Source of the DNA: Candidatus Saccharimonadota bacterium
GTDB taxonomy: Bacteria; Patescibacteriota; Saccharimonadia; Saccharimonadales; Saccharimonadaceae
Assembly: GCA_017557865.1 (NCBI GenBank)
Contig: JAFYXW010000003.1
Coordinates: 1 to 36,278, forward strand
DNA: 36,278 nt
Direction: 5' to 3'
Below are positions 21,050 through 25,084 of the stretch, piece by piece (position 1 is the stretch's first letter; the number at the start of each line of letters is the position of its first letter). The notes beneath the pieces are model-generated. The model saw only the letters and a program-made list of their open reading frames with translations. It did not search any database and was not told where the DNA came from. A program made the position numbers and the translations under genes.

Positions 21050-21988
21050 ATGAAAAAGCGTATCGTCTTGGCCCTTGGTGGCAATGCTCTACAAAAAAAC
21101 GGTGAGGCCACTGCTGAAGCTCAAAAAGCCGTCGCCGTCTCAGTTGGCGAAATGGTCGCCGAACTAGCAGACAAATACGAAATCATCTTAGCCCACGGCA
21201 ATGGCCCGCAAATTGGCAACCTCTTAATCCACGAAGAAACTGCCGGCACCGAAAAAGCCCCGGCCATGCCCCTAGAAACTGCTGTCGCCATGAGCCAAGG
21301 CCAAATTGGTTACTGGCTGACCCAGGCTATTGGCAATGCTTTCGCCAAAAGAGGCTTACACAAAAAAGTTGTTACCGTAATCTCACAAATCGTTGTAGAC
21401 CGCCGCGATCCTGCCTTCAAAGACCCTACCAAGCCTATTGGACAATTCTATTCCGAAAAAGAAGCGAAGGCTCTTGCTCGCACCAAAGGTTGGGTTGTCA
21501 AAGAAGATGCTGGCCGCGGCTGGCGTCGCGTTGTGGCTTCCCCACGTCCAATTGATATTATAGAGAAAAAGTCTATCATCGAGCTCGTCGAAGACGGCGC
21601 CATCGTAATCGCTGCTGGCGGCGGCGGCATTCCAGTTATTCGCACCAAAATCCTTGGCCGCCTCAAAGGCATCGATGCCGTTATCGACAAAGATTATGCC
21701 GCCGAAAAACTCGCCGAAGAAGCCAAAGCCGACATTTTTGTCTCTGTAACTGGCGTCCCAAATGCCTTCATTAATTATGGCACGCCAAAGGCCGAAGCTA
21801 TCGGCAAAATCAGCGCCAGCGAACTAGAAGAGCTAAAAAAATGCGGCTATTTCAAACCAGGTTCCATGCTACCAAAAATCGAAGCCACAGTAAAATTCGC
21901 AGAACACGGTGGCACTGGCATCATCACCGACATCGACAACGTCAAAGCCGCCCTCGCCGGCAAAGCTGGCACTATAATAACTGCTTAA
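21050..21988 (+). CDS. arcC: Carbamate kinase
   Basis: Transfers phosphate from carbamoyl phosphate to ADP, giving ATP, ammonia and CO2; the last step of the arginine deiminase pathway. 312 residues, normal length. Typical features: RIVLALGGNALQ at the N-terminus, HGNGPQIGNLL, PLETAVAMSQGQIGYWLTQA, RRVVASPRP, AAGGGGIPV, GIDAVIDKDYAAEKLA and the C-terminal GGTGIITD. arcA and arcB are not in the window. Arginine catabolism is a recurring trait of host-associated Saccharibacteria. Predicted leaderless. The 3' end overlaps pgi by 17 bp. Confidence 0.97.
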   Translation: MKKRIVLALGGNALQKNGEATAEAQKAVAVSVGEMVAELADKYEIILAHGNGPQIGNLLIHEETAGTEKAPAMPLETAVAMSQGQIGYWLTQAIGNAFAKRGLHKKVVTVISQIVVDRRDPAFKDPTKPIGQFYSEKEAKALARTKGWVVKEDAGRGWRRVVASPRPIDIIEKKSIIELVEDGAIVIAAGGGGIPVIRTKILGRLKGIDAVIDKDYAAEKLAEEAKADIFVSVTGVPNAFINYGTPKAEAIGKISASELEELKKCGYFKPGSMLPKIEATVKFAEHGGTGIITDIDNVKAALAGKAGTIITA

Positions 21989-23090
21989 GTTCTTGCTTGT
22001 AGGCTTCTACGCCTGGCTGGTCAAACGGGTTTACTCCCTGTAATTTTGCACTAATCGCGCAGGCCATTTCAAAGAAGTAAATTAATTCCCCAAAGCCTTT
22101 TTCGTCATAACTTTCTGGCGTAATACTAAGAACCGGAATCCCACCTGCCGTATGCGCCTTTTGTACTGCAAGCACCACTTTGGCGTTCATCTCATCTGTT
22201 GGATAATTAATAATCGTCTCCCACAGGTTTCGGCGCCCATCTTGCAAAAATTGTCCCATCGAATGAAGATCCGTAGAATAAATCACACTCGCCGGCAAAA
22301 TTCCCTGGCGATTCTTGCCTTCGCTTTCTCCAAACAATTGTTTGAGCCATTCATTAAAATACATCGTTGCCGGCTCGAAGCTGGCAAATACCTCTGTATC
22401 ATAACCCTTTTCGGCTAGATATGCCCGCATCGTAGCATACTGTGCCGGCGTATTCAAATCTTGCATGGCATTCGCCGCCCCCTCTAATAGTTTGTCGATA
22501 TCCACCCCAGCCGCCGCCAAAGGCAGTAGCCCCACCGCCGTCAACACCGAATACCTGCCACCGATATTATCTGGCACCACAAATCGCGTATAACCGTTTG
22601 CCGTCGCCTCATCATGCAAATCACCCTTGCTTGCATCCGTCGTCGCGTAAATTCGCTGCGCCGCTTGCTCGCCATATTTTTCTACCAATTTCTGCTTAAA
22701 TGCCTCAAATGCGATTTTTGGCTCCAAAGTTGTACCAGATTTAGAAATCACTAGTACCGAAAAATCATGATCGCCCACCTCGCTCAAAGCCTTATCTAAC
22801 TCTCTTTTAGACAGGGAATTTCCAGCATAAATAATCTTAACCTCAGATTTTGGCGCCAAAGCCTCTATAATGGCCCGGTGCCCCAGATAAGACCCGCCGA
22901 TACCAATGCAAACTAAATATTCGGCCTCCTCTGTAATTTTACGCGCGGCCTCTTTTATCCGCATCAATTCATTAATATCTATCTCTTGTGGCAAATTCAT
23001 CCATCCACCCATTGGATCCGCCCCAATATCCGCCAAAATTTGCGTGATTTTGCCCTGATCTATCTGCTGATTAAAGTTAAGCTTTATCAT
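21972..23090 (-). CDS. pgi: Glucose-6-phosphate isomerase (short form)
   Basis: Interconverts glucose-6-P and fructose-6-P. 372 residues, shorter than Bacillus (~450) or E. coli (549) forms. Visible signatures: VCIGIGGSYLGHRAI, VISKSGTTLEP for phosphate binding, DNIGGRYSVLTAVGLLPLA (PGI signature) and the active-site Glu in LFGESEGKNRQGILP. The C-terminal VNPFDQPGVEAYK holds the catalytic-region motif. It supplies the step ahead of the aldolase at 1-3 kb. TATAAT (23099-23104) is 8 nt before ATG. Convergent with arcC. Confidence 0.95.
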   Translation of the reverse strand: MIKLNFNQQIDQGKITQILADIGADPMGGWMNLPQEIDINELMRIKEAARKITEEAEYLVCIGIGGSYLGHRAIIEALAPKSEVKIIYAGNSLSKRELDKALSEVGDHDFSVLVISKSGTTLEPKIAFEAFKQKLVEKYGEQAAQRIYATTDASKGDLHDEATANGYTRFVVPDNIGGRYSVLTAVGLLPLAAAGVDIDKLLEGAANAMQDLNTPAQYATMRAYLAEKGYDTEVFASFEPATMYFNEWLKQLFGESEGKNRQGILPASVIYSTDLHSMGQFLQDGRRNLWETIINYPTDEMNAKVVLAVQKAHTAGGIPVLSITPESYDEKGFGELIYFFEMACAISAKLQGVNPFDQPGVEAYKQELKQLL

Positions 23091-23128
23091 ATACCCCTAT
23101 TATAACATCATATTTTTAAATAAAACTC

Positions 23129-23157
23129 TTGCTTTTTTTGCAAAAGTGTGATATAAT
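23129..23157 (+). promoter_or_regulatory. Promoter of the candidate ncRNA
   Basis: TTGCTT (23129-23134), 17-nt spacer, TATAAT (23152-23157) preceded by TGA (extended -10). Start expected near 23164. Confidence 0.75.
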
Positions 23158-23163
23158 TAATAA

Positions 23164-23354
23164 TAGCCACTCTCCTAGGAGAGACAGCTAGCTATTTAAG
23201 AAGAGCAGAGGAACTGTAACAATTAACCCCTCTTTTAAAAATATACAATATTTTGTGCCTCAAGTAGGCACGACTCTTTTACCGTATTTTTCATTCCTTC
23301 CGAACTCTTCTTTAGCACATTAAGATGGGAGTCCACAGGACTCCCTCTTTTTTT
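23164..23354 (+). ncRNA. Candidate structured non-coding RNA, ~190 nt
   Basis: The 282-nt gap between pgi and tRNA-Leu has a complete promoter and a strong terminator (23327-23354) but no convincing ORF. Possible helices: the 14-nt palindrome CTCTCCTAGGAGAG (23170-23183); a long-range stem AAGAAGAG (23198-23205) with CTCTTCTT (23305-23312); a stem continuing inward (23208-23213 with 23294-23299); apical hairpins AAAATAT-ACA-ATATTTT (23238-23254) and GTGCCT-CAAGT-AGGCAC (23255-23271). Length and the long closed arm are compatible with a 6S-type RNA, but no conserved 6S sequence was recognised; SRP RNA, tmRNA and RNase P signatures are absent. Confidence 0.6.
23327..23354 (+). terminator. Terminator of the candidate ncRNA
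   Basis: GGGAGTCC-ACA-GGACTCCC followed by a T-rich tract ending in T7. The -10 box of tRNA-Leu starts only a few nt further on. Confidence 0.92.
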
Positions 23355-23372
23355 GTGTTATAATATCCCTAT

Positions 23373-23459
23373 GCCCCTGTGGCGGAATTGGCAGACGCGC
23401 TAGCTTCAGGTGCTAGTGATAGCAATATCGTGCAGGTTCAACCCCTGTCGGGGGCACCA
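23373..23459 (+). tRNA. tRNA-Leu (CAG)
   Basis: 87 nt with long variable arm and encoded CCA. Stem CTAGC/GCTAG closes loop TTCAGGT: anticodon CAG for CUG. TATAAT ends 8-9 nt before the mature 5' end. The 3' end is 2 nt from the stop codon of the convergent pilB gene. Confidence 0.95.
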
Positions 23460-23461
23460 GA

Positions 23462-25084
23462 TTAGATAACCCTAGAAACCTCTTCTAACGTTGTTTCACC
23501 CCGGAGTACCGCAAGTACTCCTTTTTGTTCCAAGGTAAGCATTCCATTTTTCTTTGCTACTTCCTCGATCGCATCGGTGTTTGCATCTGCTACATCACCC
23601 CTAATAAACGCCTGAATCTCATCGGACACCACCAATTGCTCCATAATCACAATCCGGCCATTATAACCAAACGGATCGCCCTCTGTTACCACTGGCTCAT
23701 ATAGAGTAATGTTTTCTAAGTTTACATCGCCAAGGCGCTCTCTTGGCACACCAGCCAAAACCTCTCGAATATACTTGGCCTCCGCTTCCGAAGCCGGGCG
23801 CGGCTGCTTTGAATCAGATAGTTTTCTTACCAACCTCTGCGCCACAACCAAACGAATCGAGCTTGAAAAGATTGGGTTCACCCCTATTAAATCTATCATC
23901 CTCGAAAACGCTGCCGCTGTAGAGTTAGCATGGAACGACGACAGCACCAAATGCCCCGTAATCGACGCCTGAATCGCCGTTTTGGCCGTATCGGCATCGC
24001 GAATCTCACCCACCATCACTACGTCTGGATCTAGGCGAAGAACAGAGCGCAGCCCCTCGGCAAAAGAGCCGCCATCATTAGTGTTAATCGGTATTTGCGA
24101 AATGCCCGTAATCCCGTATTCAATTGGGTCTTCCAGCGTAATAATCTTGCGATCGGTGGTATTTAGTGCGTTCAACATCGAATATAGCGTAGTCGACTTA
24201 CCAGAACCAGTTGGACCCACCATCAAAACCAGCCCTCTTGGGTGCGAAATCACCTCATCTATCTCTGCTCGCTCCTCTTTAGACAAGCCAAGCAAATCCA
24301 AATTTAGTAAATTTTCATCAAAGTTAAAGAGACGTAGTACCGCATCTTGCCCATACATCGTCGGAATCGTTTCCACGCGAATATTCAAAACGTGGGTAGC
24401 CCCGTCCAAAGTCACCTCTTTTTGCATGTGCCCAGACTGTGGTTTATTGGAGGCGGTGGAAACGTTTGCTCTGGAGCTTAGCTCCCCCATCAAAACGCGA
24501 TATTTGTCCTTGTCGATGTCCGCAACTGGATGCAAAATTCCATCCACGCGCATGCGGATTCGGATTTCGCCCCGCAAATTCTCGATGTGAATATCTGAAG
24601 CACCCAATTTATCCGCCTGGTCAATCAAAAAGTCAAAAATCTTGTCCGAGGACACCGAATTTAGCGTCCGCGACACCTCTGTAATTGTCTCGGAATCGCC
24701 CTCGCCACCGATCTTGATGTCGTCGTAATGCACCTCTTTTGGCGGGTCGAAACGCAACATAAACACCTTGTATGCCGAGTTCGAAACCAAGAAAAAGTCC
24801 GCTTTTTTACCATTGTCAGCGTAGTCCTTTTGCATTTTCTGGATCAAAGACCTCGGCGTTTGGCTCGTCACCAAAAACTGATAATGCTCCTCGCCACCGC
24901 CTTTTTGCAAAGGAATAATAAAATCCCTATGCATCTGTTCTATACTAATAAACGGTTCTATTAGGGGAATTTCATTTTCAAACGCGCGCGTGTCTAAATA
25001 AGGCAAGCCCAAAATCCGAGCACGACCCATAGTGGCCTGCTCTTCGTTCTCACGCCTTTTTCGCTGGATTTCTGATTCATCCAT
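23462..25084 (-). CDS. pilB: Type IV pilus/type II secretion assembly ATPase (PilB/GspE family)
   Basis: Hexameric ATPase that drives pilus extension at the cytoplasmic face. 540 residues. The N2 domain has SSDKIFDFLIDQADKLGASDIHIE (145-168). Walker A GPTGSGKST is at 290-298, the Asp box LEDPIEY near 320, Walker B with VVMVGEIRD near 355, and the His box with HLVLSSFHAN after it. The four-Cys zinc motif found in many GspE/PilB proteins is missing (that region reads KLSDSKQPRPA). The N1E domain is short. The pilins it would serve are encoded at 10-13 kb and 33 kb. TATAAT (25093-25098), 8 nt before ATG. Confidence 0.92.
   Translation of the reverse strand: MDESEIQRKRRENEEQATMGRARILGLPYLDTRAFENEIPLIEPFISIEQMHRDFIIPLQKGGGEEHYQFLVTSQTPRSLIQKMQKDYADNGKKADFFLVSNSAYKVFMLRFDPPKEVHYDDIKIGGEGDSETITEVSRTLNSVSSDKIFDFLIDQADKLGASDIHIENLRGEIRIRMRVDGILHPVADIDKDKYRVLMGELSSRANVSTASNKPQSGHMQKEVTLDGATHVLNIRVETIPTMYGQDAVLRLFNFDENLLNLDLLGLSKEERAEIDEVISHPRGLVLMVGPTGSGKSTTLYSMLNALNTTDRKIITLEDPIEYGITGISQIPINTNDGGSFAEGLRSVLRLDPDVVMVGEIRDADTAKTAIQASITGHLVLSSFHANSTAAAFSRMIDLIGVNPIFSSSIRLVVAQRLVRKLSDSKQPRPASEAEAKYIREVLAGVPRERLGDVNLENITLYEPVVTEGDPFGYNGRIVIMEQLVVSDEIQAFIRGDVADANTDAIEEVAKKNGMLTLEQKGVLAVLRGETTLEEVSRVI

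Follow-up and report, generated by a model that had tools for sequence, protein, structure and literature searches.

What occupies the gap between pgi and tRNA-Leu(CAG) in this Saccharibacteria genome, and what may have stood there before? The window, the whole stretch of 36,278 nt that was analysed, is contig C16 of a 694-kb (∼0.69 Mb) Saccharibacteria assembly, and the closest relatives of its pgi come from rumen and gut Candidatus Saccharibacteria. A first-pass annotation placed an independent structured RNA gene in this gap, and the features needed to judge this proposal are as follows.

21972..23090, − strand: pgi (glucose-6-phosphate isomerase, named as in the first-pass annotation), divergent from the RNA unit; its leader is very short
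23129..23157, + strand: promoter TTGCTTTTTTTGCAAAAGTGTGATATAAT, with −35 TTGCTT, 17-nt spacer, extended TGTG and −10 TATAAT
23129-23134, + strand: −35 TTGCTT; the 17-nt spacer behind it ends TGTGA
23152-23157, + strand: −10 TATAAT of the RNA promoter, with TGTG extension
23164..23355, + strand: predicted noncoding transcript with a body of ∼190 nt, without ORF or Rfam match; homologous cores at loci L105 and L107
23165..23192, + strand: 5′ hairpin TAGC / CTCTC-CTAG-GAGAG / GCTA, which contains the palindrome
23170-23183, + strand: 14-nt palindrome CTCTCCTAGGAGAG, inside the 5′ hairpin
23198..23205, + strand: closing stem, 5′ arm AAGAAGAG, pairing exactly with the 3′ arm
23206..23224, + strand: small hairpin CAG-AGGAA-CTG, then TAACAATT; conserved block, in the versions CTGTAACAATT / GCGGCAACTAAATT / GCTGCAACTAATT
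23226..23236, + strand: C-rich, anti-Shine–Dalgarno-like stretch ACCCCTCTTTT; conserved block, CCCTCCTTTC in L105 and CACCTCCTTTT in L107
23255..23271, + strand: internal hairpin GTGCCT-CAAGT-AGGCAC, sequence not conserved in relatives
23281..23299, + strand: block ACCGTATTTTTCATTCCTT, common to the window and L107 (CCGTATTGTCATC)
23305..23312, + strand: closing stem, 3′ arm CTCTTCTT, pairing exactly with the 5′ arm
23327..23355, + strand: strong intrinsic terminator GGGAGTCC-ACA-GGACTCCC TCTTTTTTTG
23359..23364, + strand: −10 TATAAT of the tRNA-Leu gene, beyond the terminator, with the tRNA 8 nt further on; relatives have similar elements
23373..23459, + strand: tRNA-Leu(CAG), the downstream neighbour

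A separate noncoding transcription unit spans 23129-23355 (+), with divergent pgi on one side and tRNA-Leu(CAG) on the other. The extended −10 promoter with a 17-nt spacer that had been proposed for it is indeed present (TTGCTT-17-TATAAT, with the TGTG extension) and matches GCAAAAGTrTGnTATAAT exactly. With up to two mismatches this pattern has 22 sites in the genome, compared with 0 for the reversed control pattern, and the full 29-nt promoter motif occurs once in the window, where 0 occurrences are expected. Sites of the same class also precede an S10-like ribosomal protein gene, the rplJ(L10) leader (Rfam L10_leader) and tRNA genes of the host genome; judged by these sequence matches, the RNA promoter is a member of a recurrent, strong housekeeping-type class. 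A generic sigma-70 scan, which favours a −35 closer to TTGACA, gave nothing but a weaker site nearby. The strong terminator reported earlier was recovered as an 8-bp stem at 23327-23345 followed by TCTTTTTTT, and three terminator-like sites were found in 23000-23500, against 0.3 expected. The reported absence of an ORF also held, as the longest frame in the region has 22 codons and is not preceded by a Shine–Dalgarno (SD) sequence. Recoded ORFs were considered and rejected: tables 4, 15, 16 and 25 gave a longest open stretch of ≤54/65 codons, and the region is wholly open under table 6 only, where TAA and TAG are both sense, which we took as no evidence. Thus, the marks of the sRNA class, namely own promoter, intrinsic terminator and no ORF, were all found as sequence signals, and the independence of the gene is borne out by a promoter class shared with ribosomal-protein and tRNA genes. 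By these signals, the candidate RNA gene is well supported as a transcription unit.

Rfam found nothing in the region at gathering threshold except the neighbouring tRNA. At the matching locus in two sister species, L105 (genome G061) and L107 (genome G169; also L024), the sequence between promoter and terminator is a noncoding core, and these cores were compared by pairwise local alignment against dinucleotide shuffles (1000 each). The first scoring gave z 3.3 for the window and L105 (3/1000 shuffles), 4.5 for the window and L107 (0/1000) and 4.0 for L105 and L107 (1/1000); the second gave 2.9 (10/1000), 2.8 (10/1000) and 4.9 (0/1000), respectively. As a control, the cores were compared with 30 ORF-type loci, for which the mean z was ∼0 and the maximum 2.85, with none above 3; L141, which likewise has a promoter but no ORF, was similar to the RNA cores only at shuffle level, which indicates no homology. 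Common to the three cores and collinear are the small GC hairpin with YAACWAATT and then CCYCYUUU (window 23226-23236), and the AUACAAUAUUUU stretch and CCGUAUUKUCAU are shared by the window and L107 only. Model R1, built from these three sequences, had strong matches in the same 3 of 174 genomes only; its further matches (E 0.025-0.48 per genome over the 174 genomes) were taken as chance. A DNA search with the RNA across 99 genus genomes returned only short chance matches. In the pgi tree, the window's species, G061 and G169 form one clade (SH-aLRT 99). On present evidence the three noncoding cores are homologous, and the earlier suggestion of a lineage-specific RNA fits a gene with no Rfam match and a homologous core in only two sister species among the 174 genomes.

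The RNA had also been called structured, and this holds for the window sequence and L107, which fold better than shuffles, but not clearly for L105. The whole predicted transcript in the window reached z=−5.6, and z=−3.3 without the terminator, with 0/200 shuffles equally stable. The 14-nt palindrome reported near the 5′ end was found at 23170-23183, and 5′ hairpins of unrelated sequence stand at the matching position in all three cores (p 0.15 in the window, 0.002 in L105 and 0.036 in L107). The long-range stem 23198-23205/23305-23312 was right in its exact coordinates, but its loop is 99 nt and not ∼90 nt. For this closing stem p=0.003 in the window, a weak 0.11 in L107 and 0.47 in L105, where it is absent at that register. 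The check for covariation in relatives, proposed with the original claim, gave a divided answer among the three homologues: the 5′ hairpin is present in 3/3, but significance of the closing stem is limited to the window sequence, with no convincing covariation. Because three sequences cannot decide covariation, we treat structural conservation as unproven, and conservation of RNA structure across the three species is weak. In the predicted folds of the window RNA and L107, pairing takes up ∼70% of the C-rich stretch; in L105 the stretch is open.

A divergent pgi next to tRNA-Leu(CAG) is a common arrangement in the genus group, of which 174 genomes were searched. In ∼40 genomes the gap contains a promoter of the same kind, an SD and a fast-evolving ORF of 82-110 aa, a similar promoter being retained at the locus in most of these relatives and the terminator lying just before tRNA-Leu. 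At 27 loci there is no ORF before the tRNA and promoter and terminator are both lost; these gaps are mostly 44-165 nt, and up to 290 nt where an inverted repeat has been inserted. The noncoding transcription unit of the window, L105 and L107 is the remaining type. A profile of the small protein found it in 37/174 genomes, essentially at the pgi/tRNA-Leu locus only, and had no match in the window's genome.

Several observations concern the locus at large. The 82-110 aa family is uncatalogued, with the consensus MxYxVSVxL..S..R.LLRxNGFxIY..N...YxCIYN..LPxQxVL (L036:2602-2883 (−), L049:2585-2869 (−), L106, ∼40 loci), and has no convincing match in Pfam, NCBIfam or PHROG. AlphaFold predicts a ferredoxin-like fold, strand-helix-strand-strand-helix-strand (pLDDT 89), which weakly resembles ribosomal protein S6 or ACT-type domains. 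Long inverted-repeat inserts (e.g. ACTATTCGGGACCATAAGCTTGGGCGA...), perhaps small mobile elements, lie in the gap at L123, L130, L161 and L164. The usual GGAGG is gone from the pgi leader in all three RNA-bearing species.

In the pgi tree, the ORF is widespread in the group that encloses the RNA clade, basal lineage included, and L109 carries it in this comparison. Since the RNA clade nests within such a group, the small-protein ORF is probably ancestral at the locus; we infer that the protein gene came first. Decay of the ORF has probably occurred elsewhere too, because L156 has one in-frame stop in it (hmm 1.6e-22) and L141 has promoter and terminator with no recognisable ORF. The unit at L141 (G110; first 450 bases, pgi-divergent orientation) runs ∼290 nt from promoter to terminator, and its sequence is unrelated to the window RNA. 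With the small-protein mRNA of other genus members, the window RNA shares the motif and position of the promoter and the terminator before tRNA-Leu; in contrast to that mRNA, it lacks the series of SD, start codon and ORF, has no codon remnant, is shorter and has no sequence similarity. An hmm search of the three cores, in all frames, for a trace of the small protein was negative, in the same test in which L156 scored as above, and pairwise scores between the RNA and the small ORF were at shuffle level. With no recognisable coding trace in the cores, two courses are left: the coding sequence was replaced, or it decayed past recognition and some other part of the transcript was retained. Other members of the genus have a protein gene with the same promoter in this slot, or leave it empty; hence the RNA appears to occupy a former protein-gene slot, and descent from that mRNA, if it took place, left no detectable coding remnant. 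Moreover, retention of the unit here suggests selection, because 27 other ORF-less relatives lost promoter and terminator.

The conserved C-rich block points to a possible mode of action. It resembles the anti-Shine–Dalgarno sequence of 16S rRNA, in general CCUCCUUU. The assembly lacks this organism's 16S gene; no 16S rRNA gene was found by RF00177 in the assemblies of G000 and six other genus genomes, and the 16S 3′-end pattern was likewise absent in those of the seven assemblies where it was tried. In the 36-kb window, RNA segments covering the C-rich stretch were predicted to pair below −9 kcal/mol with 10-13% of start regions, compared with 2% of coding controls. Many genes of the window appear leaderless, lacking an SD and having a TATAAT ∼10 nt ahead of the start codon (e.g. 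starts 1038, 5816, 13162, 20150, 34999), so that only SD-led genes could be targets. Target searches found no specific conserved target; for an antisense target of block 23280-23297 there was no exact match at any gene start, and its inexact matches were set aside, three of four reading through open coding frames. It is established that staphylococcal C-rich sRNAs, IsrR among them, bind SD sequences of AT-rich genomes through their C-rich regions (PMC9410917). The window RNA is like the C-rich trans-acting sRNAs of Firmicutes (RsaE/RoxS, IsrR, FsrA) in being short and intergenic, with its own promoter and terminator in an AT-rich genome, and in its hairpins and its SD-complementary C-rich stretch. 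Unlike them, it has a C-rich stretch that is partly paired, belongs to a very different phylum and shows no sequence homology.

The RNA is probably regulatory. We infer that transcription from the strong housekeeping-class promoter yields an RNA of ∼190 nt, which would fold into the 5′ hairpin, a stem-enclosed core and the terminator. Acting in trans, its conserved C-rich/CU-rich segment, beside the GC hairpin and YAACWAATT, may pair with the G-rich SD regions of some mRNAs and block their translation, in the manner of the Firmicutes sRNAs. The locus would have been inherited from an ancestor that probably carried a small protein gene under the same promoter, and in the RNA clade the coding sequence would have been lost or replaced while the transcript was kept. 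As the best explanation, which we hold with about even confidence, the locus is a real lineage-specific RNA gene, most likely a trans-acting regulator through SD pairing, in an inherited protein-gene slot. Counting against it are a closing stem that reaches significance in the window sequence alone, a largely paired C-rich stretch in the window fold, the many leaderless-looking genes nearby, target searches that gave no specific conserved hit, and a set of only three homologues.

The main rival to this explanation is a transcribed relic: the small-protein mRNA lost its frame, promoter and terminator persist, and the rest decays without function. Such a relic would account for promoter and terminator positions equal to those of ORF-type loci, for the G-rich SD-like runs within the 5′ hairpins and for the decay of the ORF at L156 and L141. 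However, the three cores show no protein trace in whichever frame they are read, although the decayed ORF of L156 is easily found; they share blocks among themselves and not with ORF loci; and ORF loss elsewhere is mostly accompanied by loss of the promoter. We consider a relic unlikely, yet a serious contender.

A structural RNA that binds protein, for example a divergent 6S RNA on RNA polymerase, is improbable. The window RNA shares with 6S RNA (RF00013) its size of ∼190 nt, a long enclosing stem and a strong housekeeping-type promoter, but has an extra 5′ hairpin, and its stem is not retained in L105. RF00013 had 0 matches in the host genome, in a search that was positive in 5/14 control genomes. 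At E 10, Rfam gave two matches in the region, SSRC41 and FopS, both at chance level and discarded; in the two relatives only tRNAs and one sub-threshold PsrR1 match (E 0.048; at L193, not in the window) appeared. The earlier suggestion of 6S or of some other housekeeping RNA finds no support: RF00013 is negative, and a housekeeping RNA would not be limited to three species while relatives have an empty slot or a protein gene there. Still less probable is a role in cis, as a leader or attenuator of tRNA-Leu or as a regulator of the divergent pgi. In its favour, adjacency to both genes is conserved, and a predicted pairing of the C-rich stretch with the start region of pgi reaches −10.6 kcal/mol. 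However, tRNA-Leu has its own −10 behind a strong terminator, a G-rich leader that would match is absent from pgi in both sister species, and most relatives have the same neighbours without the element.

Returning to the trans-acting RNA gene, we tentatively propose an in-place conversion: one clade of Saccharibacteria would have turned a small-protein gene into a functional regulatory RNA gene, with promoter and terminator kept; this is possible, although we would not favour it outright. In the open-access literature searched, we found no description of small RNAs of Saccharibacteria or other ultra-small parasitic bacteria, which appear essentially undescribed. If true, the conversion would mean that a fixed locus switched from protein to RNA, and this in a phylum without described sRNAs in that literature. 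As an sRNA candidate the locus is concrete: its promoter is strong, it has two homologues, and protein gene, RNA gene and empty gap form a natural series at one address. Its expression and function are open to direct testing. Moreover, this comparison series in close relatives lets the origin of a noncoding RNA gene from a protein gene, or in its place, be followed.
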